A stretch of DNA of 64,000 nt from positions 62,001-126,000 of the forward strand of contig NZ_JSEE01000003.1 in NCBI RefSeq assembly GCF_001625355.1, written 5' to 3'. This document shows, one piece after another, positions 2,206 to 57,544 of this stretch. The translations under genes were made by a program, and so were the position numbers. Source of the DNA: Marinomonas sp. TW1 (GTDB lineage Bacteria; Pseudomonadota; Gammaproteobacteria; Pseudomonadales; Marinomonadaceae). The notes beneath the pieces are model-generated. The model searched no databases. It saw only the letters and a list, made by a program, of their open reading frames with translations, and had not been told where the DNA came from. Each line of letters starts with the position of its first letter. The first letter of the stretch is position 1.

Positions 2206-3039
2206 CTAAGTTCCAGTTAAAAATAGACTAATATATGAGGCTGCAAGTTCTGGATACTGATGTTGAGGCGCATGTCCTGCGGCTCCGAATAAAATCATCT
2301 GTGTAGTAGGTAATGTGCCGTTAAGGTTCGTCCAATCTATTGCCGCAAAGCACACATCGTCTTCTCCTATAAGCACTAAAATCGGCAATGTAGTTTGTTG
2401 CATTTTTTCAAGTGTGTTGTAGGTATTTTCTGCAAATCCCGCGACTTTTGTCAGCTTTTCAATTTGCTCCATACTCATAGGTATACTTAGATCATTTTTC
2501 CTTATTGCCAGCCTTTCATTAGAACGCTGTGCAGCAGCTTTGCTACTTTCATATTTGGGATTAAAGAAAAGCACGATTTCATCTTCGAGAGTATTAGTAG
2601 GTTTTAAGGCATGCTGAAAAAACTCAGATCTAATTGGTGAAACATTCAAACCTGGTGCTCTGGTACCAATTAAAATTCCATGACTTATTCTCTCAGGAAA
2701 TTCGGTCAGAACAATCTGCGCAACAAAACCTCCTAGAGACCAACCTGCAACTGTAAATCGGTTAATCTTAAGGCTATCAGCAAGGTCTATAACATCTTGC
2801 GCCATTTCCATGTAAGTTTTGGCTTGCTTTCCTGTCGATAAGCTTTTGCCAGAATATTCAAAAATAATTACAGTGTTAGTTTGTGCAATAGAGTCTAAAA
2901 ACGCAGGGTCCCACGAGTCAAGATTACCTCTAAAGCGGTTGGCAAATATAATGGGTTGGCCTTCGCCAAACATTCTATATGCAAGTGACTTATCTTCATT
3001 AATTTTGGCATATCGTGTTTCGGAATCGACAGTGCTCAT
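2206..3039 (-). CDS. Alpha/beta-hydrolase fold protein
   Basis: This is a single-domain alpha/beta hydrolase of about 277 residues with no signal peptide. The nucleophile elbow GWSLGG is near residue 100, an acid candidate sits in the VLIGEDDVCF strand, and the catalytic-His motif GAAGHAPQHQYPE is near the C-terminus. The early FANRFRGNLDSWDP loop fits an oxyanion-hole region. The frame stays open to an ATG at 3057, but I prefer the ATG at 3039 (MSTVDSETRY) because AGAGAGAA lies just upstream, while the outer ATG has no Shine-Dalgarno-like sequence. The substrate is unknown; haloperoxidase-like and esterase subfamilies share these motifs. It is divergent from the AraC-type regulator and next to the thioesterase-like gene. 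Confidence 0.75.
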   Translation of the reverse strand: MSTVDSETRYAKINEDKSLAYRMFGEGQPIIFANRFRGNLDSWDPAFLDSIAQTNTVIIFEYSGKSLSTGKQAKTYMEMAQDVIDLADSLKINRFTVAGWSLGGFVAQIVLTEFPERISHGILIGTRAPGLNVSPIRSEFFQHALKPTNTLEDEIVLFFNPKYESSKAAAQRSNERLAIRKNDLSIPMSMEQIEKLTKVAGFAENTYNTLEKMQQTTLPILVLIGEDDVCFAAIDWTNLNGTLPTTQMILFGAAGHAPQHQYPELAASYISLFLTGT

Positions 3040-47798: not shown

Positions 47799-50453
47799 AT
47801 GGGTGAATTAGCCAAAGAAATTATTCCCGTCAGTATCGAGAATGAACTTAAAGGGTCTTATCTCGATTACGCGATGAGTGTTATCGTGGGTCGCGCATTA
47901 CCAGATGTACGAGATGGGTTAAAACCTGTTCACCGTCGCGTTCTATTTGCGATGAATGAACTTAAAAACGATTGGAATAAACCGTATAAAAAATCAGCAC
48001 GTATCGTTGGTGATGTAATCGGTAAATATCACCCTCATGGTGACTCTGCAGTTTACGATACGATAGTCCGTATGGCGCAACCATTTTCCATGCGCTACAC
48101 CCTAGTCGATGGCCAAGGTAACTTTGGTTCGGTGGATGGTGATAGTGCCGCAGCGATGCGTTATACAGAGATCCGTATGGAGAAGATTTCTCATCATCTT
48201 CTCATGGACTTGGAAAAGGAAACGGTCGACTTTGTACCTAACTACGACGGTACTGAGTTCATGCCTGAAGTCTTGCCAGCTCGTGTACCTGGGCTCTTGG
48301 TAAATGGCTCAGCGGGTATCGCCGTTGGTATGGCCACTAATATCCCACCACACAACTTAGGCGAAGTGATCGATGGTTGTTTGGCTGTCATTGACAATAA
48401 TGACATCACTATTGATGAGTTGATCGAACATATCCCAGGGCCTGATTTTCCAACAGGGGCCTTTATTAATGGCCGTGCTGGCATCATTGAAGCCTACAAA
48501 ACAGGTCGTGGCCGTATTTACATGCGTGCTCGCCATCACTTTGAAGACATGGAAAAAGGCAATCGCCAAGCCATCGTCTTTACTGAAATTCCTTATCAGT
48601 TGAATAAAGCTAAAGTGATCGAGAAGATTGCTGAGTTGGTCAAAGATAAGAAACTTGAAGGCATTAGCGAGTTGCGTGATGAGTCTGATAAAGACGGTAT
48701 GCGCATCGTGATTGAACTGCGTCGTGGTGAGAACCCTGATGTAGTGGTAAACAACATCTTCACCCAAACTCAATTGCAGTCTGTGTTCGGTATGAATATG
48801 GTGGCCTTGGTTGATGGTCGTCCTCAATTGCTTAACTTGAAACAAATTTTAGAATGTTTCGTTAAGCATCGCCGTGAAGTGGTGACTCGCCGAACCATTT
48901 TTGAATTACGTAAAGCGCGCGAACGTGGCCATATCTTAGAAGGTTTGGCGGTGGCGTTGGCGAATATTGATCGCGTGATCGAGTTAATTCGAAACTCACC
49001 TACGTCTGCGGAAGCCAAAGAGAAGTTGGTTGCGGAATCATGGCAGCCAGGTAACGTCATGGCCATGCTCGAACGTGCTGGTTCGGATGCGTGTCGTCCT
49101 GATGATTTGGCTGTAGAGTTTGGTTTTGTCGATGGTACTTACCATTTGTCGCCGGAGCAGGCACAAGCTATCTTGGATTTGCGTTTGCACCGTTTGACCG
49201 GTCTAGAGCATGAAAAATTAATGGACGAATACCGTGCATTAATTGACTTGATTGGTGAGTTGCTAGAAATTCTGTCTAACCCAGATCGTTTGATGGAAGT
49301 GATTCGTGAAGAATTGGAAGACGTGCGTGAAATGTTTGGCGATGCTCGTCGTACCGAAATTCTGACGTCTCGCCAAGATCTGACCATTGCGGATTTGATC
49401 GATGAAGCACCAATGGTGGTGACCATTTCGGATACGGGTTATGCCAAATCACAGCCGCTTGAGGAGTACAAAGCTCAGCGTCGTGGTGGTCGTGGTAAGT
49501 CAGCGTCGGCAATGAAAGAAGAAGATCACATTAACCACTTATTGGTGACCAGCAGTCATGATACCGTCATGCTGTTTACCAACTTTGGTAAAGTGTACTG
49601 GTTGCGTGTGTTTGAAATTCCGGTGGCCAGTCGTTCTTCGAAAGGTCGTCCGATTGTGAATTTATTGCCATTGGCTGAAGGCGAACATGTTTCTGCGCTA
49701 TTGCCATTAACCGCACCTGAAAAATCCGATTCTGATGAAGAAGAGGATGTACAAGAGGCAAGCAGCTATATCTTTATGGCAACGGCCAACGGTACGGTGA
49801 AGAAAACGGCGATGGAGCACTTTGCTCGTCCGCGCTCTACAGGTCTGATTGCGCTCAATTTAGATGAAACTGACGCCTTGGTTGGTGTAGCGCAAACGTC
49901 TGGTGAGAACGACATCATGTTGGTTTCAAGCTCAGGCAAAACCATTCGTTTCTCAGAAGGTGATGTGCGTCCAATGGGTCGTACGGCTGCTGGTGTACGT
50001 GGTATTCGCCTAGGTGAAGATGCGAAAGTGGTTTCTCTTATTGTTCCGCAAGAAGGCACGGCAGTGTTAATGGCTTGTGAGAATGGTTACGGAAAACGTA
50101 CTTTGGTTGAAGACTTCCCAGTGTATGGTCGTGGTGGTCAAGGTGTTATCGGTATCCAAGTGTCTGATCGTAACGGTCCAGTGGTTGGTGCGACTCAGGT
50201 CGAAGAAACCGATGAAATCATGTTGATTACGGATCAGGGTACGTTGGTTCGAACTCGTGTTAGTGAAGTGTCTTGTCAAGGGCGTAATACCCAAGGCGTG
50301 ACATTGATTCGTTTAACCAATGATGAACACCTAGTGGGTGTGGTTCGCGTTGAAGAAGACGAAGAAAGTGATGACGAGGATGACGAACTACAGGTACCTG
50401 AGGCTGAGAATCAAGCCGCGGCGGCAGAAGAGCCCGACGCAGCAGAAGATTAA
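47799..50453 (+). CDS. gyrA: DNA gyrase subunit A
   Basis: 884 residues. The breakage-reunion core carries the catalytic Tyr122 in [10 protein letters not shown]. The quinolone-resistance region reads [18 protein letters not shown] with Ser83 and Asp87, the susceptible state in E. coli numbering. Six beta-pinwheel blades make up the C-terminal half, with the GyrA box in [11 protein letters not shown] (residues ~565). An acidic tail ([13 protein letters not shown] onward) closes the protein. With GyrB it adds negative supercoils to DNA. It is followed by a terminator hairpin. Confidence 0.98.
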
Positions 50454-50527: not shown

Positions 50528-51607
50528 ATGAGTCGAGTATACAATTTTTGTTCTGGTCCAGCGGCACTGCCAGAAGCAGTATTGAAGAAGGCCCAAGCTG
50601 AGTTGTTGGATTGGCATGGTGCTGGTGTCTCTGTTATGGAAATGAGTCACCGCAGTGCTGAGTTTATGTCAATCTTGGCGTCGGCAAAAGCACGCTTGAA
50701 GCGCTTGCTTGAGATTGGTGATGACTACGAAATATTGTTTGTGCAGGGCGGCGCGTCTACTCTGTTTGCTCAAATTCCAGCGAACTTGGCTAAAGGTTAT
50801 GATTCGGCTTGTTATTTAGACACGGGTGCTTGGTCGACGAAAGCAATTAAAGAGGCGAAAAAATACACCAAGGTGAATGTGGTGGGCTCCTCTAAAGCAG
50901 ATAATTACACTTATGTGCCGAATTGGTCTGACTTAGAGTTAGATGAAAGTGCGGCGTATTTGCATCTTTGTCCAAACGAAACCATTGGTGGTTTAGAGTT
51001 TGCGGATTTGCCTGAAACCGATTTACCGATTGTGGCGGATTTGTCTTCAACCATCTTGTCACGCAAAATTGATGTCAGTAAATATGGCGTTATCTACGCA
51101 GGCGCGCAGAAAAACGTTGGCCCTGCTGGGATTGTGATTTGTATTATCCGCAAGGATTTGTTGGCGCGATGCGATGATGCCTTGCCGTCGATCTGGAATT
51201 TTGCCAATTTGGCGAAACACGATTCTATGGTTAATACGCCGCCGACCTTCGCTATTTATTTGGCTGACTTGGTGTTTGAGTGGTTGGAAGAGCAGGGCGG
51301 TGTTGTGGCCATGGAAGCCGTTAACCAAGCGAAAGCGAAAGCCTTGTATGATTTCATTGATCAAAGTGCGTTTTACGCTAACCCTATCGCGCCAGAAAAT
51401 CGCTCGCGTATGAATGTGCCTTTTACCTTGGCAGATGAGGCGTTAGAAGCGACGTTTTTGGTAGAGTCTGAAGCCGCTGGTTTACGTACTTTGGCGGGGC
51501 ATCGTTCTGTTGGCGGTATGCGTGCCAGTATTTACAACGCGATGCCAATGGAAGGTGTTCAAGCCTTGATTGATTTCATGAAAGCCTTTGAGAAACGTTA
51601 CGGGTAA
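50528..51607 (+). CDS. serC: Phosphoserine aminotransferase
   Basis: From the ATG at 50528 (MSRVYNFCSGPAALPE) the product has 360 residues (E. coli 362), with GAGGTAAACAGGGG upstream. The frame is open 18 codons further but over the gyrA terminator. PLP motifs are present: FVQGGASTLFAQIP, the Schiff-base Lys in VIYAGAQKNVGPAGI, and HRSVGGMRASIYNAM. It catalyses transamination of 3-phosphohydroxypyruvate in serine synthesis and the matching step for pyridoxal phosphate. It is the first gene of the serC-pheA-tyrA run; its stop lies 5 bp before the pheA ATG. Confidence 0.96.
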   Translation: MSRVYNFCSGPAALPEAVLKKAQAELLDWHGAGVSVMEMSHRSAEFMSILASAKARLKRLLEIGDDYEILFVQGGASTLFAQIPANLAKGYDSACYLDTGAWSTKAIKEAKKYTKVNVVGSSKADNYTYVPNWSDLELDESAAYLHLCPNETIGGLEFADLPETDLPIVADLSSTILSRKIDVSKYGVIYAGAQKNVGPAGIVICIIRKDLLARCDDALPSIWNFANLAKHDSMVNTPPTFAIYLADLVFEWLEEQGGVVAMEAVNQAKAKALYDFIDQSAFYANPIAPENRSRMNVPFTLADEALEATFLVESEAAGLRTLAGHRSVGGMRASIYNAMPMEGVQALIDFMKAFEKRYG

Positions 51608-51611
51608 TGAT

Positions 51612-52733
51612 ATGTCTAATTCAAAATCGGTAGTGCCGGACACGCTACCGCTGTTGCGGGATCGCATTGATAGTATTGATTCGCAAATCCAGTCCTTGAT
51701 TAATGAGCGTGCCCGCTGTGCAGAGAAAGTAGCCGAAGTGAAATTGGCTGAGCAGGGTGATGAAACGGTTGTTTTTTACCGGCCTGAACGAGAGGCTCAA
51801 GTATTGCGTCGCGTTATGGAGCGTAACGAAGGGCCGCTGGGTAATGAGGAAATGGCAAAGATCTTCCGTCAGGTCATGTCTTCATGTTTGGCATTAGAGA
51901 AACCGATGCGCATTGCCTTTTTAGGACCGGAAGGGACTTTTACTCAGCAGGCTGCATTGAAGCATTTCGGTAAGTCGATTATCAGTGCGCCTATGGCGGC
52001 AATCGATGAAGTGTTTCGTGAAGTGGAATCTGGTGCGGCTAACTATGGCGTGGTGCCCGTTGAAAATTCTACCGAAGGGGTGGTGAATCACACTTTGGAT
52101 ACCTTCCGTGATTCGCAATTGAAAATATGTGGTGAAGTGGAAGAGCGTATTCATCATCATTTATTGTTAAGTCCAAATGTGAATGCGGATGATGTTACGC
52201 ATATCTACTCGCATCAACAATCTTTGGCTCAGTGCCGTGCTTGGTTGGATCGCTATTGGCCACATGTGGAGCGCGTGGCGGTGAGTTCTAATGCTGAAGC
52301 CGCTCGCTTAGCCGCAGAGGCGGGGCGCAGTGGTCAAGCGATCGCTGCGATCGCTGGAGAAGTGGCGTGCGAATTGTACGATTTGGTGAAGGTGTCGGCC
52401 AATATTGAAGACCGCCCTGATAATACCACTCGCTTCTTAATCGTGGGCACACAGGATGTGCCTGCAAGTGGTAAAGATAAAACCTCGTTGTTGATTAGTG
52501 CGAAGAATGAACCGGGTGCTCTGTATCGTTTATTGGAAGCATTTGAGCGTCACGGTGTCGACATGACTCGTTTGGAAACACGTCCATCCTTAATGAGTCG
52601 TTGGGGCTACATCTTCTACATCGACTTTGTTGGACATTATCAAGATCCAGAATGTCAGGCTGTCATAGAAGAGCTGCGAAGCCGAGCGTCTGAAGTAAAA
52701 GTGTTGGGTTCTTATCCTGTGGCGGTGCTGTAA
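51612..52733 (+). CDS. pheA: Chorismate mutase/prephenate dehydratase (P-protein)
   Basis: From the ATG at 51612 the product has 373 residues, with GGGTAA upstream. Domain order: AroQ chorismate mutase (~8-95, LLRDRIDSIDSQIQSLINERA), prephenate dehydratase (~105-280, FLGPEGTFTQQAALKHFG, NSTEGVVNHTLD, and the catalytic DNTTRFLIVG), and an ACT domain (~295-373) with the Phe-binding GALYRLLEAFERHGVDMTRLETRPS. It takes chorismate to phenylpyruvate and is inhibited by phenylalanine in the family. It overlaps no gene and is 6 bp ahead of the tyrA fusion. Confidence 0.96.
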   Translation: MSNSKSVVPDTLPLLRDRIDSIDSQIQSLINERARCAEKVAEVKLAEQGDETVVFYRPEREAQVLRRVMERNEGPLGNEEMAKIFRQVMSSCLALEKPMRIAFLGPEGTFTQQAALKHFGKSIISAPMAAIDEVFREVESGAANYGVVPVENSTEGVVNHTLDTFRDSQLKICGEVEERIHHHLLLSPNVNADDVTHIYSHQQSLAQCRAWLDRYWPHVERVAVSSNAEAARLAAEAGRSGQAIAAIAGEVACELYDLVKVSANIEDRPDNTTRFLIVGTQDVPASGKDKTSLLISAKNEPGALYRLLEAFERHGVDMTRLETRPSLMSRWGYIFYIDFVGHYQDPECQAVIEELRSRASEVKVLGSYPVAVL

Positions 52734-52739
52734 TTAGCA

Positions 52740-54977
52740 ATGAGTGAATCTAAGTTGACAAAAGATCGATTGAAGCACGACCAACTTTCATTTGGTAAAG
52801 TCATGATTGTTGGCTTGGGGATGATTGGCGGTTCTTTTGCGAAGGCGTTAAAAGAAAGAGGCTTGGCAGAACTTTATGCGGTTGATCGCCGTGAAGGAGA
52901 ATTGGCCTTAGGTGTGTCAACAGGGGTGATTGATTATCCAGCTGAATTGACCGAGCAATTCATCGCTCAGATGGATGTCATTGTGCTGGCAACGCCAGTG
53001 CGTGCCATGGCCTCCGTATTGGCTGATATTAAACCGTACCTTGCTGAGCATACTTTGTTGACCGATGTGGGTTCAACGAAAGGCAGTGTGGTGGAGGCCG
53101 CGGTTTCTGTATTTGGTCATATGCCGGCTAACTTTATTCCCGGTCACCCGATTGCTGGTGCAGAGAAAAGCGGTGTATTGGCCGCCAACTCTCAATTGTT
53201 TGAAAAACACATGGCGATTGTAACGCCTGCCGCCGATAGTGATCCTGTGCTAGTGGATCGTTTGCATCGCTTGTGGCGCGCGATTGGTGCCGACGTTGTG
53301 AGTATGGATGTTGAACACCATGACCATGTGTTGGCATCGTCTAGTCACTTACCTCATTTGTTGGCCTATACCTTGGTAGATGCTCTAGCCAACAGTGATC
53401 GCAGTCAAGATGTCTTTAAGTTTGCCGCCGGTGGTTTTCGTGATTTTACGCGAATTGCTTCCAGTGACCCTGTCATGTGGCGAGATGTGTTCTTAGCCAA
53501 TAAAGAGGCTACCTTAGCGACGCTTGACCAGTTTACGGCGCGTTTGGCGGATATGCGTGAGGCCATTGAACAAGGTGATGGCGCGAGTATGTTTGGTGTC
53601 TTTACTCGCGCAAAGTCTGCTCGAGATCATTTCTTAAGGTTGCTTGAGCAGCGTACTATTGCGCCGCAAAAAGATACTAGTTCGGTTTCTCTGTCGGTTC
53701 TGCCTGCGTCAGTTGTAAAAGGTGAGGTTTCTTTGCCGGGTGACAAATCTTTGTCACATATTGCGATTACTATGGCTGCGCTTTCGAATGGCGTGAGTCA
53801 ATTAACGAATGTTTGTCTTGATAACGGCGTTCGAGTCACGATTCAGGCGTTACGTGATATGGGCGTGGTTATTGAGACGCTGTCCGAAAGTTCGTTGCGA
53901 GTACACGGTGTTGGTTTGCGAGGTTTAAGAGCGCCAATTGCACCGATTAATTTGCATCGATCTGAATTAAGTTTATATGTCTTATTACCTGTTTTAGCAG
54001 GGCAGCCTTTTGCTGTTTCTGTGACGGCGGACGATCCTCTTTTAAATCGCGTTCGAACGGATGTGTTTGATTTAATAAGGGCCATGGGGGTTGAGTTAGC
54101 ATTTGAGCGTGAGGATTGTTTGCCAGTTAAAATGACGCCAGCAGTGCCCAAAGCTTTGTCTTTTAGTTTGGACGGCGCGTCGCAAAAATTAATGGTCAGT
54201 GCCTTTATGGCGTGTTTGTTTGCTGAACAAGATGCGAGTTTGACGCATGCGCCGCAAGACGTCACTCAAATGGAAGTTTTATTACAGCGCTTTGGCGTGG
54301 TTGTTACTCGTTCTGAAGCGACAATATCGGTTGTATCGGGTGAGCTGATCGCAACGGATGTTGAGATCGTTGCGGATATGTACAGCTCGGCTTGGATGGC
54401 GTTATTGGCCAGTTTGTTGCCGGGTTCTGAGTTGGTGATGACGAATTTAGGCTTAGATGCCAGAGCGTTTGCGTATTTTGCTTTGCTTAAGCAGATTGGC
54501 GCCGATATTGACATGCCTGCTAAGGGGTCCTCCGGTTTATATGAAGGGCAAGTTGTGGTGCGCTTTGCTGAGTTGTCAGCGTTTCAGTTGTCAGTTGAGC
54601 AGACCAATCAGTTAAGGACCCTAATGCCGTTGCTTTGTGTGGCGGCGGCTTATGCTAAAGGTCAATCTCGAATGGATGGTATTGGGCAATTGCCTTATTA
54701 CCATGAAGACAGAGTCTTAGCCCTGATCGACGCTTTTGGTCTGGTGCAAGTGAATGCGCAGATTGAAAGTGGTTGTTTGAGTATTGATGGCGGTGTTCCA
54801 CAGGGAGGGGAATTGGACTGCGCGGGTGATCAATATTTGGCGCTTGCTATGTTGGCGCTGGGGGTAAGAAGCAAAACGATTACTCAAATAGAAGATTGCC
54901 AAACATTATTAGAAGAATTTAGTGAGTTAGACGCGCAGGCTAAGCAATTAGGTTTACATTGCTCAGTGGCGCAATAG
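52740..54977 (+). CDS. tyrA: Prephenate dehydrogenase fused to a degenerate EPSP synthase-like domain
   Basis: 745 residues. TyrA (~20-300) looks active: [14 protein letters not shown] (NAD site), [23 protein letters not shown], and the [19 protein letters not shown] segment with the catalytic His. The rest (~318-745) aligns with AroA (EPSP synthase), as in the known TyrA-AroA fusion of pseudomonads. It keeps PGDKS (Lys336, Ser337), [18 protein letters not shown] and GADI. But in E. coli numbering Arg27 is Ile341, Asn94/Gly96/Thr97/Arg100 are Arg407/Glu409/Leu410/Tyr413, Gln171 is Lys483, Asp313 is Thr627, Glu341 is His655, and His385/Arg386 are Gln698/Tyr699. Arg124 (437) and Arg344 (658) remain. 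No frameshift is present. The second half is probably not an active EPSP synthase, so a separate aroA should exist. It probably makes 4-hydroxyphenylpyruvate for tyrosine. Confidence 0.9.
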
Positions 54978-54996: not shown

Positions 54997-55680
54997 ATGA
55001 TTAACCAAGGCCCAGTTATTACGATTGATGGTCCAAGTGGTGCTGGTAAAGGCACAGTAAGTCAATTGGTAGCAGAAAAGCTGGGATGGCATTTGTTAGA
55101 CAGTGGTGCTTTGTATCGACTTTTAGCGTTGGCAGTGTCACACCACGGTATGTCTGAAAATGATGTGGAAACACTAAAGGTATTGGCTGAACATTTGGAT
55201 ATTCAGTTCCAGCAGTCGGCTGAAGGTAAGGTTGAAATTGTGCTTGAAGGTGAGGTGGTCACTCAGGCCATTCGAACTGAAGAAGTTGGCAACGCGGCAT
55301 CAAAATTAGCAGCGATCCCAGAAGTTCGTCAGGGTTTACTGCTTCGTCAACGAGCGTTCGCTCAAACGCCAGGTTTGGTGGCGGATGGTCGCGATATGGG
55401 GACGGTCGTTTTCCCATCAGCGCAAATTAAAATCTTTTTGACGGCTTCCGCTGAAGAGCGAGCACAAAGACGTCTTCTGCAATTGCAGCAAAAAGGCGAA
55501 ACTGTTAATCTAGAGACATTAGTTAAAACGATTAAAGAGCGTGACGAGCGTGATGCAAATCGTGTCATCGCGCCACTTGTCCCTGCGGCTGGTGCGCTTG
55601 TAATCGATAGTACTGACTTAACCATAGAACAAGTTGTTGAAATCATCCTTGCTGAAACAGCCAAGGCGGGTTTTGCATAG
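54997..55680 (+). CDS. cmk: Cytidylate kinase
   Basis: 227 residues, GAGGAA before the ATG. The P-loop is in [36 protein letters not shown] and [32 protein letters not shown] follow, with the CMP-binding insert (~60-110) of the long form. It phosphorylates CMP and dCMP. The position between tyrA/aroA and rpsA is the classic order in gammaproteobacteria. Confidence 0.95.
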
Positions 55681-55861: not shown

Positions 55862-57544
55862 ATGACTCAAAGCTTCGCAGAACTGTTTGAAGAAAGCCTA
55901 CAAAGCGTTGAAATGGCGCCAGGCTCAATTGTTACTGGTATCATTGTTGATATCGACAATGAATGGGTAACTGTTCATGCAGGTCTTAAATCTGAAGGCG
56001 TAATTCCTCGTTCTCAGTTCCTAACGGAAAGTGGTGAGTTCAACTTAAACATCGGTGACGAAGTTAAAGTTGCACTTGACGCTGTTGAAGATGGTTTCGG
56101 TGAGACTAAATTGTCTCGTGAAAAAGCTAAGCGTGCAGAGACTTGGTCTGTGCTTGAAAAAGCTTACGAAGAAAATGCCATCGTTAACGGTGTGATTAAC
56201 GGTAAGGTCAAAGGTGGCTTCACTGTTGATATCGCTAACATCCGTGCTTTCTTGCCTGGTTCTTTGGTAGATGTTCGTCCAATCCGCGACACGTCTCACT
56301 TGGAAGGTGTGGATCTAGAGTTCAAACTTATCAAGCTTGATCAAAAACGTAACAACGTTGTTGTTTCTCGTCGTGCCGTTATGGAAGCGACTAACAGCGC
56401 TGAACGTGAAACATTGCTTGCTTCTCTTGAAGAAGGTCAAGAAGTTAAAGGTATCGTTAAGAACCTTACTGACTACGGTGCATTCGTTGATCTTGGTGGT
56501 GTTGATGGTCTTCTACACATCACTGACATGGCTTGGAAACGCATTAAGCACCCAAGCGAAATCATTGCTGTTGGCGATGAGATCGATGTTAAAGTTCTTA
56601 AGTTCGACCGTGAGCGTAACCGTGTATCACTAGGGCTTAAGCAGTTGGGTGAAGATCCATGGGTTGCAATCAAAGCCCGTTACCCAGAAAACACTAAAGT
56701 AACGGCTAAAGTTACTAACTTGACTGACTACGGTTGTTTCGCCGAGTTGGAAGAGGGTGTTGAAGGTCTTGTTCATGTTTCTGAAATGGACTGGACTAAC
56801 AAGAACATCCACCCATCTAAAGTTGTCCAAATTGGCGACGAAGTTGAGGTTATGGTTCTTGATATCGACGAAGAACGTCGTCGTATCTCTTTGGGTATCA
56901 AGCAGTGCACAATGAACCCATGGGAAGAATTTGCTACTTCTTTCAACAAAGGCGATAAGATCTCTGGTGCCATCAAGTCTATCACTGACTTCGGTGTGTT
57001 CATCGGTCTTGACGGCGGCATTGACGGTCTAGTTCACCTATCTGACCTATCTTGGGATGAAGCTGGTGAAGAAGCGGTTCGTCAATACAAGAAAGGCGAT
57101 ATGCTAGAAACAGTTGTATTGTCTATCGATGCTGAGCGCGAGCGTATCTCTCTAGGTGTTAAACAACTAGAAGAAGATCCTTTCCTAGCTTACGTTGCTG
57201 AAAACGACAAAGGCACTATCGTAAATGGTACTGTTTCTGAAGTTGATGCTAAAGGCGCTGTTGTAACACTTTCTGAAGGTGTTGAAGCGACTCTTAAAGT
57301 ATCTGAAATCAGCCGCGAACGTGTTGAAGATGCAACAACGGCTCTTAAAGAGGGTGACTCTGTAGAAGCGGCGATCATTAACGTTGATCGTAAAGCTCGC
57401 ACTATCACGCTTTCTATCAAGCAGAAAGATGCTACTGAAGAAAAAGCGGCGATGAAGTCTCATTCTGAGAAGCAACAAGTTGAAGCAAATGGTCCAACCA
57501 CTATCGGTGATTTGATCAAAGCACAATTGGAAGGCCAAGAGTAA
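55862..57544 (+). CDS. rpsA: 30S ribosomal protein S1
   Basis: 560 residues (E. coli 557). Six S1 motifs follow in order, from [29 protein letters not shown] through [34 protein letters not shown] (the third, RNA-binding) to [30 protein letters not shown]1 recruits mRNA to the 30S subunit. The codon choice is clearly biased compared with the surrounding genes (e.g. many GTT, AAA, GAA, CGT), typical of high expression. ihfB, which often follows rpsA, is missing here. Confidence 0.97.

Follow-up and report, generated by a model that had tools for sequence, protein, structure and literature searches.

The EPSP-synthase half of the TyrA-AroA fusion of Marinomonas is a putative pseudo-enzyme maintained by purifying selection

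The tyrA-aroA fusion gene of Marinomonas sp. TW1 raises the question of why an enzyme half that has lost most of its catalytic residues should still be encoded at full length. The window analysed here, a stretch of 64,000 nucleotides from contig NZ_JSEE01000003.1, carries on its forward strand, at 52740-54977, a single open reading frame (ORF) of 745 amino acids in which a Pfam search recognised PDH_N and PDH_C, followed by PF00275 (residues 324-723, E=5e-43). The TyrA half (residues ~1-305, 52740-53654, +), delimited by PF02153, PF20463 and its invariant columns, can be classified as a prephenate/cyclohexadienyl dehydrogenase from the presence of both PDH_N and PDH_C with their conserved motifs (34 protein letters) retained. 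The EPSP-synthase half (residues 317-745, 53688-54974, +) is full length and free of stops and frameshifts, as an earlier sequence-only reading of the locus had stated.

The fusion gene, which we call tyrA-psi-aroA and identified from its ORF and from Pfam and NCBIfam models, has an orthologue in each of the 49 genomes of our genus sample (Marinomonas and Maribrevibacterium), open and full length in every case. It is preceded by gyrA (47799-50453), serC (50528-51607) and pheA, encoding a chorismate mutase-prephenate dehydratase (51612-52733), and followed by cmk (cytidylate kinase, 54997-55680) and rpsA (ribosomal protein S1, 55862-57544), all on the + strand and assigned from ORFs and synteny. 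The resulting order gyrA>serC>pheA>tyrA-psi-aroA>cmk>rpsA is conserved in 49/49 genomes and matches the ancestral supraoperon described in PMC1173090. Against the NCBIfam model of bifunctional TyrA-AroA (NF011381) the window protein scored 843.8 bits, below the curated cut-off of 902 that marks a protein with both activities; it is orthologous and syntenic with those proteins and has lost the residues of the second activity. With TIGR01356, which describes functional AroA, it reached 158 bits, under the cut-off of 287.25, and the corresponding halves from all 49 genomes scored between 129 and 203 bits, every one under the same cut-off.

Alignment of the window protein with E. coli K-12 AroA revealed the changes R27I, N94R, G96E, T97L, R100Y, Q171K, D313T, K340Y, E341H, H385Q and R386Y, with K22, S23, R124, S169 and R344 retained (E. 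coli numbering). The five retained residues and ten of the substitutions are exactly those given by the sequence-only reading, whose list lacked K340Y, a change of comparable damage to E341H. Asp313, Lys340, Glu341 and His385 matter in EPSP synthase catalysis, and of the catalytic residues Lys22, Asp313, Lys340, Glu341 and His385 the window protein has Lys22 only. Two active-site segments appear re-made in the alignment: residues 404-424 (53949-54011, +; 21 protein letters) replace YLGNSGTSMRLLxGLLAGQxF of the intact copies, and LPYYHEDR (residues 651-658, 54690-54713, +) replaces LRVKESDR, with K340 and E341 gone and E656 (window numbering) newly fixed in 49/49 genomes. H385Q and R386Y lie in a C-terminal block (residues 690-745, 54807-54974, +) distinguished by its conservation, dN/dS and synonymous sites.

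Relatives with an intact site, which would have pointed to a damaged or misassembled sequence, were absent from the genus, R100, K340, E341 and H385 being present in 0/49 genomes. Assembly damage or a recent pseudogene was thus ruled out by the same state in all 49. Retention of the other residues ranged from high (R344 48/49, K22 47/49, S23 43/49, S169 42/49) to patchy (D313 19/49, T97 14/49, R27 13/49, R386 11/49, R124 10/49, N94 8/49), position 313 being D or E in 35/49 genomes. Because some of the changes are peculiar to the clade of the window, the shared inactivation rests on Arg100, Lys340, Glu341 and His385. The substitutions are not alignment noise, since in other genera (Pseudomonas, Marinobacter, Microbulbifer, Salinicola, Hahella and others) all the listed residues are present in 67/67 intact AroA domains, fused or related. 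Parsimony on the TyrA tree, whose backbone support is moderate, placed the losses of R100, K340, E341 and H385 as one stem change each and assigned 10 changes to D313, 7 to R124 and 7 to R386 after the stem inactivation; together with the alignment, this indicates that most of the other contacts to the substrates were lost afterwards, in separate events clade by clade. With residues lost on the ancestral branch, an ORF that was kept and dN/dS well below 1, the EPSP-synthase half is predicted to be a pseudo-enzyme across the whole genus.

The source genome contains two further PF00275 genes, namely a MurA (L002), which scored 566 bits with TIGR01072, and a stand-alone AroA (L083:5301-6590), which reached 479.5 bits with TIGR01356 against the cut-off of 287. 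The second intact aroA that the sequence-only reading had called for is therefore present, which rules out the fusion as the only aroA copy of the genome. A stand-alone E. coli-type aroA above the TIGR01356 cut-off was detected in 48/49 genus genomes, the one without it being a 77%-complete draft (G042), and was unbroken in 47/49. In the draft G027 the gene is frameshifted (L082, about 2820-3000), either through an error in sequencing or through a genuine lesion that would leave the strain without EPSP synthase. The full catalytic set was found in all 38 genus copies of the separate AroA examined, and the copies placed in the tree formed one clade (support 100/100), the backbone of the AroA tree resolving no donor. 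The separate aroA is located away from the gyrA-rpsA cluster. G019 (99% complete in 5 contigs) gave no MurA-type match to PF00275; MurA is normally essential, and an assembly gap is the probable explanation.

Other lineages of the same order, each of which also has an intact E. coli-type AroA at another locus, were found to carry the fusion in graded states. It is still intact in G149, G055 and G105 (1043-1151 bits with the bifunctional model), whereas what appear to be early lesions were seen in G085 (N94H, G96A, R344P, H385L) and in G096 and G157 (K22R, N94Q, G96A, H385P), with 860-982 bits for the three; for G096 against G157, dN/dS of the AroA half was 0.053. G092 (L130:1949-3889) and G156 (L131:1709-3643) encode TyrA with an open frame of ~330 amino acids behind it (341-372 bits) that shows traces of the EPSP synthase start, no recognition by PF00275 and 24% identity between the two, and in G121, G183, G053, G131 and G115 TyrA stands alone with about 300-330 amino acids. 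Seen side by side, these states are each likely to reflect an independent replacement, on which the AroA tree gives no resolution.

In every species examined the fused EPSP-synthase half is whole and under strong purifying selection. Its pairwise dN/dS by GY94 was 0.036-0.125 in the 60 closest pairs (likelihood ratio test, LRT, against neutrality 81-416), all below 0.13, and pooling of 12 independent pairs yielded 0.091 (LRT against 1 = 2495); on the same pooled basis the TyrA half had 0.026 and the stand-alone AroA 0.031. Relaxed selection, which the sequence-only reading had named as a sign of mere decay, is thereby ruled out. Intact fusions show the opposite order, with medians of 0.057 for TyrA and 0.028 for AroA (43 pairs), indicating that constraint on the Marinomonas half was lost in part and for the most part persists. 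A stop in this half would leave TyrA complete, so a useless half should tolerate truncation. Neutral simulation at the observed dS produced 7-13 stops per pair and no stop-free run in 300, against zero stops observed; these values, together with dN/dS, rule out simple decay. Even the middle segment, with normal synonymous sites, gave a dN/dS of 0.137 (LRT 391), and every segment was far below 1.

The remaining constraint is unevenly distributed. Mean conservation in the genus and in the intact set was 0.80/0.87 for Ec21-86, 0.73/0.81 for Ec87-152, 0.48/0.79 for Ec153-239, 0.58/0.82 for Ec240-309, 0.66/0.82 for Ec310-376 and 0.76/0.70 for Ec377-427, of which the pattern along the domain tells more than the levels because the intact set is taxonomically broader. 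As conservation and dN/dS show, selection now guards the fold, the N-terminal lobe (about residues 335-425) and, at the C-terminus, a block (about 690-745) that is more conserved in the genus than in intact fusions, and constraint has been released in the middle (about 465-543) and in the catalytic cleft. At a threshold of 85% fixation, 72 positions were newly constrained (at 37 the fixed residue had changed, and another 35 had become fixed). N404, L412, P417 and E656 are invariant in the genus (49/49), and the newly fixed positions sit in segments such as one of 20 protein letters, LPYYxEDR and DCQKLLEEFxELE. Residues N404, H406, R626, Y653 and E656, polar or aromatic, are newly fixed at the old cleft; overall, newly fixed positions showed no enrichment around the old active site (p 0.10-0.29, windows of 2-4 residues, with sequence distance as a proxy for distance in three dimensions). 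Two cysteines, C460 and C741 (window about 54117 and 54960), are also newly fixed, in 46/49 and 47/49 genomes, respectively.

Synonymous divergence is reduced at the 3' end of the gene (codons about 662-745, window 54723-54974), with 0.27-0.28 compared to about 0.42, and also falls at the start of the fused half. Part of the C-terminal conservation may therefore act on DNA or RNA, although no promoter-like site or known RNA element was found in the 3'-end region before cmk-rpsA. In intact fusions (L177-L243; 14 pairs) four-fold sites at the TyrA-AroA junction (codons about 240-329) diverged by 0.11-0.21 versus about 0.36 elsewhere, and third positions of codons 270-299 were markedly conserved in Marinobacter, which suggests that the junction of intact fusions holds an embedded promoter, RNA or translation element.

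AlphaFold2 modelled the EPSP-synthase half with higher confidence alone (pLDDT 92.6, pTM 0.90) than within the whole fusion protein (pLDDT 88.4, pTM 0.67), in which no interface between the halves was seen, their predicted placing being uncertain. The model of the half matched EPSP synthases with VIA Z of about 44 (4gfp, Z 44.4, rmsd 2.6 over 405 residues); rmsd was lowest for 3rmt, 4gfp and 5bs5 (2.3-2.6 Å) and higher, about 3.5 Å, for ligand-bound enzymes. As the AlphaFold alignment includes intact enzymes, the model speaks for compatibility with the fold, and the assignment to the EPSP synthase fold (PF00275) is based on homology over the whole domain together with the predicted two-domain structure.

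Since it is kept whole under strong selection in every species, the fused half probably serves the TyrA half in a non-catalytic manner. The idea that it is a pseudo-enzyme kept for another job was borne out as far as retention under selection is concerned. The account we tentatively favour, and would back almost as readily as doubt, is that the domain is a structural partner of TyrA after the displacement of its own activity. The starting point would be the gammaproteobacterial TyrA-AroA fusion in its ancestral form, which has remained in the original gene cluster and whose EPSP-synthase activity was presumably displaced on or before the genus stem by the separate E. coli-type aroA, given that nearly every genus genome has this gene and that its copies form one clade. 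The separate gene would have arrived before the fused half lost its function. That half dropped Arg100, Lys340, Glu341 and His385 on the stem and later, in individual clades, most remaining contacts, as alignment and parsimony show. Decay may have been avoided if the folded domain was by then acting, newly or from the outset, as a structural partner of TyrA, packing against its helical dimerisation domain through surfaces of the N-lobe and the C-terminal block, and lending stability to the fold or the oligomer of a prephenate dehydrogenase that is otherwise ordinary. The scaffold would not be generally required, since TyrA stands alone in lineages with the same separate gene.

The same retention could reflect control of TyrA by a pathway metabolite (tyrosine, shikimate-3-phosphate (S3P), PEP, prephenate or other) bound in a re-made cleft, an allosteric role that we consider unlikely but worth keeping in view. 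The persistence of K22, R344 and S23 and the new polar residues of the cleft (N404, H406, R626 and E656) would also be explained by ligand binding, to which the newly fixed Y653 can be added, and inactive shikimate-pathway proteins, namely fungal QutR and relatives, are thought to be regulators (a working hypothesis, PMC10512348). However, the S3P and PEP contacts D313, R124, R386 and Q171 were lost repeatedly and differ among clades, which, combined with the lack of cleft enrichment among newly fixed positions, weighs against a conserved ability to sense the former ligands and leans slightly towards a structural role; the lack of enrichment likewise fits a scaffold better than a cleft sensor. 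It seems to us rather doubtful that, on the stem of this one genus, the EPSP-synthase fold was converted into a novel domain for allosteric regulation of TyrA, with a ligand site of its own in the re-lined cleft. It is improbable that the half is a docking platform recruiting the separate AroA, PheA or an aminotransferase for channelling: its conserved blocks are specific and partly new, and the fusion gene adjoins serC and pheA in 49/49 genomes, but the separate aroA is unlinked to this cluster. We give as little credence to a functionless passenger, retained because cutting it off would impair the folding of TyrA or because its DNA serves cmk-rpsA. The synonymous slowdown at the 3' end and at the start of the half hints at nucleotide-level elements, and cmk and rpsA lie directly downstream; against this stand the low dN/dS throughout, including the middle with its normal synonymous rate, the absence from all 49 genomes of the truncation or loss seen in other lineages, and the missing promoter-like site. 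A still-active or altered enolpyruvyl transferase is hardly credible, for despite the intact predicted fold and the retained K22 and R344, four key residues (K340, E341, H385 and R100) are lost in 49/49 genomes and D313 in 30/49, and the genome already has an intact AroA and MurA.

Compared with the bifunctional TyrA-AroA proteins of pseudomonads, Marinobacter and Acinetobacter (NF011381), the Marinomonas protein is the same orthologous fusion with the same gene order and predicted fold, the solved structure of the EPSP-synthase half from Acinetobacter (5bs5, numbered 312-756) matching our model with VIA Z 43.7-43.9; it differs in lacking the catalytic residues, the activity having apparently moved to a separate gene. 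The closest parallel is the truncated TyrA-AroF remnant of P. syringae reported in 2005, whose fused EPSP-synthase half was likewise discarded after a separate gene came (PMC1173090); about 200 residues are deleted there and the passage on it reports no selection, whereas in Marinomonas the half has its full length, occurs across the genus and shows purifying selection by measurement. The authors of that article suggested the remnant as a new regulatory domain, so this idea, raised also by the sequence-only reading, had been proposed already. TyrA-ACT and other TyrA-REG proteins (PMC1173090) similarly join TyrA to a non-catalytic C-terminal domain, but ACT and REG domains are regulatory folds and, unlike the Marinomonas half, do not derive from an enzyme of the same pathway. 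The fungal repressors QutR, GaaX and TanX (inactive C-terminal half of AROM, PMC10512348) are also inactive shikimate-pathway domains with another role, although composed of shikimate kinase, dehydroquinase and shikimate dehydrogenase domains and standing alone rather than fused to an active enzyme. Searches of the open literature brought up no full-length, genus-wide and selectively maintained pseudo-EPSP synthase on TyrA, and Marinomonas-specific open sources yielded nothing relevant, an earlier mention in a subscription paper (on TyrA cohesion groups) being possible. The general phenomenon is thus already known, and its full-length, genus-wide and selected form is new in the open literature searched.

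The locus offers a natural case of the fate of one half of a bifunctional enzyme once another gene takes its activity. In Marinomonas this half was neither lost nor left to decay and was retained instead as a putatively inactive domain under a new constraint, and since related lineages stand at other stages, the making of a pseudo-enzyme domain is open to comparative study. Annotation of the gene as a 'bifunctional EPSP synthase' would mislead for the whole genus, an error with consequences for reconstructing the pathway and for studies that target EPSP synthase.
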